From: Candidatus Kryptoniota bacterium
GTDB lineage: Bacteria; Bacteroidota; Ignavibacteria; Kryptoniales; JAKASW01
Reading direction: 5' to 3'
Assembly: GCA_024641705.1 (NCBI GenBank)
Contig: JAHECO010000003.1
Coordinates: 1-64,000, forward strand
DNA: 64,000 bases
The notes under the pieces are model-generated. The model ran no database searches and had not been told where the DNA came from. It saw only the letters and a program-made list of their open reading frames with translations. The translations under genes and the position numbers were made by a program. Numbering within the stretch: the first letter of the stretch is position 1; every line of letters begins with the position of its first letter. This document shows, piece by piece, positions 38,260 through 43,491 of the stretch.

Positions 38260-38288
38260 TTGACAACCGCCCAACGGCATGCTATATT
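38260..38288 (+). promoter_or_regulatory. Sigma-70-like promoter of the winged-helix operon
   Basis: TTGACA (38260-38265), a 17-base spacer and TATATT (38283-38288). The palindromic operator begins at the next base, so a bound regulator would cover the transcription start. Confidence 0.75.
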
Positions 38289-38311
38289 ACTTTGTAATTC
38301 AAAGTACTTTA
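38289..38311 (+). promoter_or_regulatory. Operator copy 1
   Basis: ACTTTGTAA, two bases, CAAAGTACTTTA. The ACTTTG/CAAAGT arms are an inverted repeat, followed by a third ACTTTA half. The same 23 bases apart from the two central ones recur at 39251-39273. Likely bound by the winged-helix protein encoded at 38931 (inference). Confidence 0.7.
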
Positions 38312-38325
38312 TGTTAGGAGGAGAA

Positions 38326-38934
38326 ATGGACCAGCAGAATGCGATCGAGGAGATTGCCCTCATAAGGAGGGTCATCGACGAAAGCCGCAGGTTTACGTTG
38401 GACAACGGCAAGTATTATCTGCTATGGGGAGTACTCATCACCGTAGCGATCTTTGCCCAATATGCCCTGATACTGACCAATAATGCGGGAATATCGGAGC
38501 TGTGGCTGTGGGTTGTCACCGTGGGAATCGGATGGCTCATATCGACAGTCTTAGGAATGCGTGAGGCTTCCAGGCATGCCAGCTGGCCGATCGGCGCAAA
38601 GCTTATCGCTCTTATCTGGGTAAGTACCGGCGTCGTCATGACGATAATCGGCTTCGTGGGACCGGTCTCAGGTGGACTGCATAGCTGGGCGATCTGCCCG
38701 GCATTAGCCGCAGTTATGGGGGGGTCCTATACGATCAGCTCCCTCATCTACCGACTGAGGTGGGTTGCGTTTGTCGGCATTGCATGGTGGATTGGGTCTC
38801 TCGTGATGTTTCTCGTAAAAGGGATAAATACCCTCCCCATCTTCGGATCCATGATGATTCTTTTTCAAATCGTGCCCGGCATCGTATTTTACAAATCGTG
38901 GAAAAGAAATTCGGCAATAGCTGACGCAAAATGA
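38326..38934 (+). CDS. Membrane protein cotranscribed with a winged-helix regulator
   Basis: 202 residues from the ATG at 38326, set by TTAGGAGGAG just upstream. The start (MDQQNAIEEIALIRRVIDESR) is a soluble helix; five or six membrane helices follow (about residues 25-185). Its stop overlaps the regulator's ATG by 4 bases (ATGA). The pairing of such a protein with a small winged-helix regulator recurs in Bacteroidota as far as I recall. A role in sensing or in moving a small molecule is possible; nothing in the sequence fixes it. Confidence 0.82.
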   Translation: MDQQNAIEEIALIRRVIDESRRFTLDNGKYYLLWGVLITVAIFAQYALILTNNAGISELWLWVVTVGIGWLISTVLGMREASRHASWPIGAKLIALIWVSTGVVMTIIGFVGPVSGGLHSWAICPALAAVMGGSYTISSLIYRLRWVAFVGIAWWIGSLVMFLVKGINTLPIFGSMMILFQIVPGIVFYKSWKRNSAIADAK

Positions 38935-39227
38935 GCGACTTCGATTATCAGCAAATCGACGATACGCTTCATTCAAGAATAAGACTCGCGGTCGTCGCCG
39001 CCCTCGTCAGCGTAGAGCAGGCCGACTTCAATTTTCTCAGAGATACAGTCAAGACCACCGACGGTAACCTCAGCACGCATCTCAGGAAACTGGAGGAGGT
39101 CGGCTATGTCTCATCGAAGAAACGCTTCGTCGAAAGGAAGCCGCAGACTACTTACAAGATTACCGAGAAAGGGAGACGCGCGCTGGAAGAATATGTCGCT
39201 ACGCTGGAAAAATTCCTGAAGAAATAA
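38931..39227 (+). CDS. Winged-helix transcriptional regulator
   Basis: 98 residues, a single winged-helix DNA-binding domain: SRIRLAVVAALVSVEQADFNFLRDTVKTTDGNLSTHLRKLEEVGYV (near 13-58) holds the helix-turn-helix, and KKRFVERKPQTTYKITEKGRRALEEY the wing. Relatives act as repressors that control their own operon. Two copies of a palindromic operator flank the operon's first two genes (38289 and 39251), which fits autoregulation and control of the downstream TPR and TonB-receptor genes. Confidence 0.92.
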   Translation: MSDFDYQQIDDTLHSRIRLAVVAALVSVEQADFNFLRDTVKTTDGNLSTHLRKLEEVGYVSSKKRFVERKPQTTYKITEKGRRALEEYVATLEKFLKK

Positions 39228-39250
39228 CGGACAAAAATTTTTGTGTTGAG

Positions 39251-39273
39251 ACTTTGTAAAACAAAGTACTTTA
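39251..39273 (+). promoter_or_regulatory. Operator copy 2
   Basis: ACTTTGTAA, AA, CAAAGTACTTTA: identical to the site at 38289 except for the two central bases. It lies between the regulator gene and the TPR gene, 14 bases before the latter's start. Confidence 0.7.
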
Positions 39274-39287
39274 TCATGAAAGGAGAC

Positions 39288-42548: not shown

Positions 42549-42959
42549 ATGAAGGGCAAATTGATTCTTGCCGCATTTGCGGCATTGGCGTTCGCTTCTT
42601 GTGAGGTGAATTCCGGTAGTACCGTGGTAGGGTCCGGCAGCGACACCCAGATAAACGGCGTGAGTTTCACGGTGGATACGCTGTATGTTGACGCGAGTGG
42701 GTCCGGTCAGCTCGTCGCCCGCGGCCTTGTCAAGGATTCGACCGTGTCGTCGATCAGCGTGCCATGGTATGTCGAAGGTCAATTCTATACCGACAGCACT
42801 TATACTACCAAACTCGGCGGCAACGACACGGAGATTAAGGTTCCACTTTCGCAGGGCCAGTCGACATTCTGGACGATATATTTTTACACCTCAACCGTCG
42901 ATGTAAGGCAGTTCCCGAATTTCAGGATCGGCAATCTCAGGGCTATCTACAAGAATTGA
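42549..42959 (+). CDS. Small lipoprotein, paralogue 1
   Basis: 136 residues with a lipobox (LAAFAALAFASC, cysteine near residue 18). The body is beta-rich: GVSFTVDTLYVDASGSGQLVARGLVKDSTVSSISVPWYVEGQFYTD, ending FRIGNLRAIYKN. The overall pattern (a transport-independent beta-sandwich with a W-x-V-E-x-Q-F-Y-x-D strand) recalls FxLYD-type extracellular domains. Its neighbour at 43084 is a clear paralogue. Function unknown. Confidence 0.78.
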   Translation: MKGKLILAAFAALAFASCEVNSGSTVVGSGSDTQINGVSFTVDTLYVDASGSGQLVARGLVKDSTVSSISVPWYVEGQFYTDSTYTTKLGGNDTEIKVPLSQGQSTFWTIYFYTSTVDVRQFPNFRIGNLRAIYKN

Positions 42960-43083: not shown

Positions 43084-43491
43084 ATGAAGGGAATGCTCGT
43101 ATTGTCGGCGGTGTTTTCAATCGTCATGGTATCGTGTGAAGTCACCGTGCACGACGGCGGGATCGATCAATCCGGCGGCGCGGGGATCAGCAACGTCATC
43201 TTCACGGTCGATACGACGTACATGGTCTCGAGCCCGGCGATGCTCGTGGCGCGCGGCATGGCGAGGAACGACGGGTCATCCACCATCACTTCTCCCTGGT
43301 GGGTCGAGTGCCAGTTCTACACGGATTCCACCCTGCTCGTAAAACTGGGTGCGAGCGACTTTCAAATAGGAGTTCCGCTGTCGCCGGGGCAGTCTACCTA
43401 TTGGATGATCAACCTCTACAGCAGCAACGTCGATGTCCGCCGCTTTCCCGATTTCAAGGTGAGCGACTTCAGGGCCCTCTACAAAAACTGA
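43084..43491 (+). CDS. Small lipoprotein, paralogue 2
   Basis: 135 residues from the ATG at 43084 (GGGAGG upstream; a TTG one codon earlier is less likely). Lipobox SIVMVSC near residue 18. It aligns along its whole length with the previous gene (NVIFTVDTTYMVSSPAMLVARGMARNDGSSTITSPWWVECQFYTDSTLLVKLG; same FKVSDFRALYKN end) at roughly half identity. The pair is a tandem duplication. Confidence 0.78.
   Translation: MKGMLVLSAVFSIVMVSCEVTVHDGGIDQSGGAGISNVIFTVDTTYMVSSPAMLVARGMARNDGSSTITSPWWVECQFYTDSTLLVKLGASDFQIGVPLSPGQSTYWMINLYSSNVDVRRFPDFKVSDFRALYKN

Follow-up and report, generated by a model that had tools for sequence, protein, structure and literature searches.

Results

Two nearly identical operators lie in one operon of the window

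We analysed a 64,000-nucleotide stretch of DNA (the window) that contains an operon for a membrane protein, a small winged-helix regulator, a TPR-repeat protein and a TonB-dependent outer-membrane receptor (Table 1). The membrane-protein and regulator genes overlap by 4 nt. No promoter other than the one ahead of them was recognised for the TPR and TonB-receptor genes that follow.

Table 1 Features of the operon, with positions in the window.
Feature	Position	Strand	Remarks
Sigma-70-type promoter	38260–38288	+	TTGACA 38260–38265, 17-nt spacer, TATATT 38283–38288; 11 of 12 matches
Operator 1 (op1)	38289–38312	+	ACTTTGTAATTCAAAGTACTTTAT, 24 bases
Palindrome of op1, ACTTTGTAATTCAAAGT	38289–38305		followed by third half-site ACTTTA, 38306–38311
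Membrane protein, 202 aa	38326–38934	+	structure prediction with six long helices, mean pLDDT 88.4
Regulator, 98 aa, winged helix HTH_34 (PF13601)	38931–39227	+	proposed repressor; Pfam 2.8e-31
T run (U-tract in RNA)	39238–39242	+	last T 9 nt before the C of the op2 CTTT
Operator 2 (op2), proposed roadblock site	39251–39274	+	ACTTTGTAAAACAAAGTACTTTAT, 24 bases
Palindrome of op2, ACTTTGTAAAACAAAGT	39251–39267		followed by third half-site ACTTTA, 39268–39273
TPR-repeat protein, 273 aa	39288–40109	+	gene directly 3′ of op2
TonB-dependent outer-membrane receptor, 743 aa	40123–42354	+	carboxypeptidase-regulatory-like domain and plug

The regulator matched the HTH_34 model (PF13601) with 107.9 bits (gathering cut-off 27), far above its score against PadR (PF03551; 29.6 bits, cut-off 27), and it is the only HTH_34 match in the genome. 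The nearest PDB chain, 1ub9 (PH1061), represents winged-helix regulators of the same sequence family. For the membrane protein, we found no Pfam or NCBIfam match, no PDB match at E ≤0.001 in a structure comparison and nothing convincing in a profile search; seven of its homologues also lacked a Pfam match. The receptor scored only 38.8 bits against the SusC/RagA model TIGR04056, below the cut-off of 368.25. An mfd gene lies on the same contig as the operon.

Two related small lipoprotein-like genes follow the receptor gene (42549–42959 and 43084–43491), and their order is kept in a related contig (L014, at 8088 and 8600). They showed no Pfam match and no exact operator before them. In two genus relatives, G008 and G004 (L014:7377–7908 and L005:2915–3106), the TonB-receptor gene after the TPR gene matches only in part and is apparently largely deleted; the TPR gene and both operators remain in place. 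Judged from these deletions, the receptor may not be the essential load of the operon.

Each of the two operators consists of a 17-bp palindrome and an immediately adjoining third half-site, and the two differ in two central bases only. The preliminary description had reported a 23-base element occurring twice; the two sites and the two central differences were borne out, and the length is 24. It had mentioned neither the third half-sites nor the T run before op2. As it had also stated, the first site begins directly after the −10 box, and the second stands just before the TPR and TonB-receptor genes. Op1 overlies the expected transcription start of the membrane-protein/regulator operon, and the promoter geometry fits the earlier idea that a protein on op1 would block transcription start, the binding itself being inferred. 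Op2 is set off by 23 nt from the regulator stop codon on its 5′ side and by 13 nt from the TPR ATG (39288) on its 3′ side.

The 24-base pattern, allowing up to 3 mismatches, was observed twice in the window and never in 100 shuffles of it. The palindrome alone (ACTTTGN5CAAAGT, up to 2 mismatches) would not have been significant, with 2 occurrences in the window against 1.66 expected. We then carried out the genome scan suggested earlier: in all 4,619,371 bases, the exact ACTTTGN5CAAAGT occurred only at op1 and op2, while the reversed control pattern did not occur at all. Since there is no further exact site in the genome, the control circuit envisaged in the preliminary description holds up overall, but as one operon and not as a scattered regulon, and its second site does not look like a promoter operator (see below). 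Extending the scan for a wider regulon to the degenerate DCTTTGN5CAAAGH over 13 genus genomes, we obtained totals of the same order as the reversed control, and therefore claim no further target genes.

The operators are conserved at related loci

Relatives of the regulator were collected by protein search. Matches were found in 9 of 13 genomes of the genus, 15 of 20 of the order and 227 of 395 of the phylum; for the class, 119 of 391 genomes matched at E 1e-10 or better. Genome contigs gave 22 loci, and neighbourhoods were fetched. The resulting set of 132 loci comprises L003–L012, L018–L032 and L052–L161, less three duplicates (L056, L107 and L137). It excludes contigs of already-counted genus genomes (L013–L017), distant archaeal matches (L033–L034) and pattern hits (L035–L051), and it includes eleven loci of family f27 (L074–L079 and L081–L085) in which neither op1 nor op2 was found. 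These counts are not independent events, because related loci share ancestry.

Scanning for CTTTN7AAAGNNCTTT at a score of at least 11 of 12, we found op1 5′ of the membrane-protein gene in 76 of the 132 loci, op2 3′ of the regulator gene in 38, and both in 33. The absence of the motif upstream of orthologous operons, which would have refuted the shared-operator proposal, was thus not encountered. Eleven loci with a four-half-site op1 were omitted from the op1 frequency table only, and the counts on 36 op2 sites leave out L092 and L136. An ORF of at least 170 aa directly precedes the regulator gene in 118 of the 132 loci. Setting L074–L085 aside, we counted 82 orthologous loci; 49 of them lack op2, so the proposed roadblock is not essential to the membrane-protein/regulator pair. 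A TPR homologue was present in 26 of 36 loci with op2 compared with 2 of the 49 without it, a count limited by flanks of only 1.5 kb at many loci.

Operators of other layouts were also seen. In f15/f17 loci (e.g., L101, L106, L112 and L113), op1 has an additional, fourth half-site on its upstream side (AAAGCACTTT...AAAGTACTTT), and no op2 was found; judging by these letters, the operator seems to have been extended instead of duplicated. Actinobacterial HTH_34 relatives also have ACTTTGN5CAAAGT-like sites upstream, at L030:5166–5223, where there are three in tandem, and at L032:2457–2473. This similarity suggests that the operator may be older than the Bacteroidota module.

A T run stands in fixed register with op2

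At the studied locus, a T run ends 9 nt before the CTTT of op2 and not of op1; its last T is 17 bp from the op2 centre. A T run of 5 to 8 precedes 35 of the 38 op2 sites; the run stops exactly 9 nt short of CTTT in 34 of these and 8 nt short of it in one. Among the exceptions are L136, an op2-like site without a T run, and L060, which has only TTT. Aligning the sites, we find TTTTT at positions −13 to −9 of 35 of 36 op2 sites and only 3 of 76 op1 sites, and AAAAA at none.

This register does not depend on the motif used for the scan. When palindromes with 4-bp arms of any sequence were sought after T runs in the 132 loci, 37 occurred at a gap of 9 nt and 0 to 3 at each other gap from 0 to 25. 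The gap-9 set takes in the diverged operators GTTTA (L025) and GTTAA (L144 and L145). We also checked 20 further loci from other families, picked before their sequence was seen. A gap-9 palindrome followed a T run of at least 4 in 10 of the 20 and of at least 5 in 7, with no more than 2 at any other gap; the threshold of at least 4 was set after the sequences had been seen. By hand count, gap-9 sites (gap-8 in one label) carry 12 family labels in the 132-locus set and 5 more in the 20 further loci, 17 altogether.

Searching 391 genomes for T5, a variable gap and CTTTGN5CAAAG, we found that, among the 150 matches listed, 21 had a regulator gene no more than 40 bp away; the gap was 9 in 20 of these, and the remaining one is the reverse reading of one of these gap-9 sites. 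The gaps of the 112 listed matches that lie more than 2 kb from a regulator gene were spread over 4 to 14.

In L129, L131 and L132, two blocks of T run and operator occur inside the operon, one after the regulator gene and one directly before the TPR gene. Between the blocks lies an extra operon gene of 243–244 aa; that of L129 (2865–3596, oriented as the regulator) encodes an Rce1-like CAAX protease by Pfam. The leader of L080 departs clearly from this register: about 627 nt upstream of the regulator gene, it contains another copy of the GTTT operator, identical to the first, whose T run stands at an 11-nt gap. We also considered the T run as the half-site of a second tandem dimer; its fixed 3′ end and variable 5′ end argue against this.

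Op2 has no recognisable promoter or terminator hairpin

We asked what else a T run before an operator could be. The Bacteroidota −33 element is TTTG. Op2 could be an ordinary promoter operator, the regulator blocking a TPR/TonB promoter of its own in which the T run serves as a −35/−33-like element. A G does follow the T run in 19 of 36 sites, and the TACTTT after the palindrome resembles a −10 element. However, the two would be about 24 nt apart, TACTTT is equally present in op1, where another −10 exists, and the ATG of the next gene comes within about 10 nt in several loci. Known promoter signatures separate the two operators: TTGAC stands upstream of 55 of 76 op1 but 0 of 36 op2 sites, and TAnnnT is near 37 of 76 op1 but only 3 of 36 op2 sites. 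In GTTT-type loci, the promoter is placed differently, with TTTG before and TAnnTTTG after the palindrome; TAnnTTTG follows 7 of 9 op1 and 0 of 7 op2 sites there, and the T-run gap is unchanged. Promoter elements thus shift against the operator between groups, and the T run does not. With TTGAC at 0 of 36 and TAnnTTTG at 0 of 7 sites, we rejected a promoter at op2, and we regard this explanation as unlikely, even if it remains the most tenable of the alternatives. As far as the letters can tell, op2 is an operator inside a transcribed region without a recognisable promoter of its own, as roadblock regulation would require.

The T run might instead be a bent or stiff A-tract, a DNA-structure element that strengthens repressor binding at op2. 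Its centre is about two helical turns from the operator centre, as such an element might be. We consider this quite improbable: an A run would bend DNA similarly, yet the Ts are confined to the coding strand (TTTTT in 35 of 36, AAAAA in 0 of 36), and the T run is absent from op1, where only 3 of 76 sites have it.

Less likely still, the T run could belong to an intrinsic terminator (attenuator), one that would divide the genes with no need of the repressor. The U-tract does lie directly past the regulator stop codon in most op2 loci, as expected from such a terminator. Folding the 40 nt before the T run, we saw no excess stability in 36 loci (mean z 0.20, mean −3.0 kcal/mol), and a hairpin-dependent terminator was rejected on this ground. 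At the studied locus, there is no G+C-rich hairpin directly before the U-tract, and no terminator is listed at 39238. T runs of at least 6 within 80 nt of the regulator stop are found in 32 of 38 op2 loci, but only in 13 of 91 loci without op2, some of which have a diverged gap-9 operator missed by the CTTT scan. Besides, the T-run phase is locked to the operator; where op2 lies 178 or 195 nt past the stop codon (L070 and L071), the T run stayed with the operator and not with the stop codon.

The operator covaries with the regulator

Comparing regulators with their sites, we find that the operator covaries with the DGNL motif in the recognition helix of the regulator, a correspondence read from aligned letters, in which Asp goes with C and other residues mostly with G. 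For this count, loci were read regardless of the first base of the operator. Of the 116 loci whose regulator has Asp in the motif, 84 had CTTTN7AAAG and none had GTTTN7AAAC. Of the 16 with a regulator parsed as non-Asp, 10 had GTTTN7AAAC and one had CTTT; this one (L160) was mis-parsed and has Asp. In addition, Gln at the His position that follows pairs with A at base 5 in 10 of 10 cases. Exceptions to the rule are L195 (Ala with CTTT) and L030 and L032 (Pro/Ala with ACTTTG sites). By this covariation, the neighbouring regulator is linked to the site much more securely than by its position alone. That another protein binds the shared sites, the adjacent winged-helix gene being a coincidence, is scarcely credible: no binding data exist to rule it out, but site and regulator co-occur across families, residue and base covary, and the genome offers no further exact site.

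Discussion

From the sequences we can read the two sites, their restriction to one locus, their conservation, the specificity covariation, the phase of the T run and the lack of a recognisable promoter or hairpin at op2. Our preferred interpretation, in which we have considerable though not full confidence, is that op1 serves autorepression at initiation, and that op2 is a repressor-dependent, hairpin-free roadblock terminator guarding the TPR and TonB-receptor genes. Binding, roadblock, termination, sensor role and signal are all inferred.

The 98-residue winged-helix autorepressor would bind CTTTN7AAAG palindromes together with one more half-site 17 bp further along. At op1, it would cover the transcription start of the membrane-protein/regulator operon; at op2, the bound repressor would halt RNA polymerase that escaped op1. 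The halted polymerase would then have its RNA:DNA hybrid in the U-tract, where weak rU:dA pairing would make it prone to backtrack, to be released or to be removed by Mfd. A small basal amount of the regulator and of its membrane partner would thereby still be made, and the genes beyond op2 would be under a double lock. A signal, probably passing through the six-helix membrane protein, would weaken the repressor, so that both locks open and the whole operon is transcribed. The membrane protein is likely the sensor or controller of the repressor, an inference drawn because it is the constant partner of a regulator without a ligand domain.

The geometry of op2 can be compared with that of a characterised roadblock. 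According to the available part of the report, E. coli RNA polymerase that runs into EcoRI-Q111 halts 14 nt before the 6-bp site of this protein (PMC5499547). This stop is about 17 bp from the site centre, the same distance as between the last T and the op2 centre; as far as that partial source allows the comparison, a halted polymerase would therefore hold an rU:dA hybrid. In E. coli, Mfd removes most roadblocked polymerases, again as described in the accessible parts of the sources (PMC4132739, PMC10310618). In the eukaryotic Pol I terminators (Reb1/Nsi1 and TTF1), the polymerase is stopped by a bound protein while in a tract whose non-template strand is rich in T, 15 bp before the binding site, by the portion of the account at hand (PMC12366685). 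A U-tract at the RNA end of the stopped polymerase, as in a Pol I-type terminator, is what op2 has, with its last T 17 bp from the operator centre. Stop geometry, Mfd and the likeness to Pol I together led us to regard op1 as controlling initiation and op2 as a roadblock terminator that depends on the repressor.

The likeness to Pol I is one of working and not of homology, which we do not claim: our sites belong to a bacterial operon, the blocking protein would be a regulatory repressor, and no hairpin is conserved. In yeast Pol I, the best-studied system of roadblock and T-rich tract, release also required an RNA hairpin, as far as the part of the paper available goes (PMC12366685), whereas none was seen upstream of the T run in our 36 loci.

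Repressor roadblocks are already known from LacI at O3, YtgR, CodY, CcpA and ArsR. The intergenic operator of trpR-trpBA in Chlamydia is also an intra-operon repressor site at which upstream transcripts end in a YtgR-dependent manner; unlike the regulator here, YtgR is encoded elsewhere, an alternative trpBA promoter exists, and the available portion of the article describes no phased U-tract (PMC6504234). LacI at O3 forms a roadblock at the end of its own gene that limits transcription, as given in the accessible section of the source (PMC3711431). Going by that section, LacI cuts its own supply, while in our operon the block would lie downstream of the regulator gene and upstream of the genes under control. 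ArsR roadblocking at a synthetic auxiliary operator lowers sensor background; that arrangement was engineered, whereas this one is natural and has a U-tract in addition. Searching open-licence papers, we found no operator or partner protein for PF13601/HTH_34 regulators, no description of this system under the operator letters or Ignavibacteria regulons, and no conserved hairpin-free U-tract phased with a repressor operator across a phylum. What appears new, within the literature searched, is the phased hairpin-free U-tract at a repressor operator and not the roadblock repressors themselves; binding and termination remain inferences.

Taken more broadly, we lean modestly towards the view that these sites form a natural class of conditional bacterial terminators: a repressor operator with a U-tract fixed 9 nt upstream, without a hairpin, that occurs in many Bacteroidota families and can recur within one operon, ahead of one gene and again ahead of the next. 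Such a class would be a bacterial counterpart of the Pol I roadblock terminator and would let a repressor grade expression from gene to gene of a single transcript. The known examples of roadblock repression are isolated, and most come without a rule at the sequence level. Across 17 family labels, the letters of the operator change but its register with the U-tract does not; this amounts to a testable sequence rule that can be searched with other regulators. The locus also offers a compact part for low-background gene circuits. To a winged-helix family for which no operator had been described, it adds a proposed pair of sensor and repressor whose specificity position can be read from the sequence.
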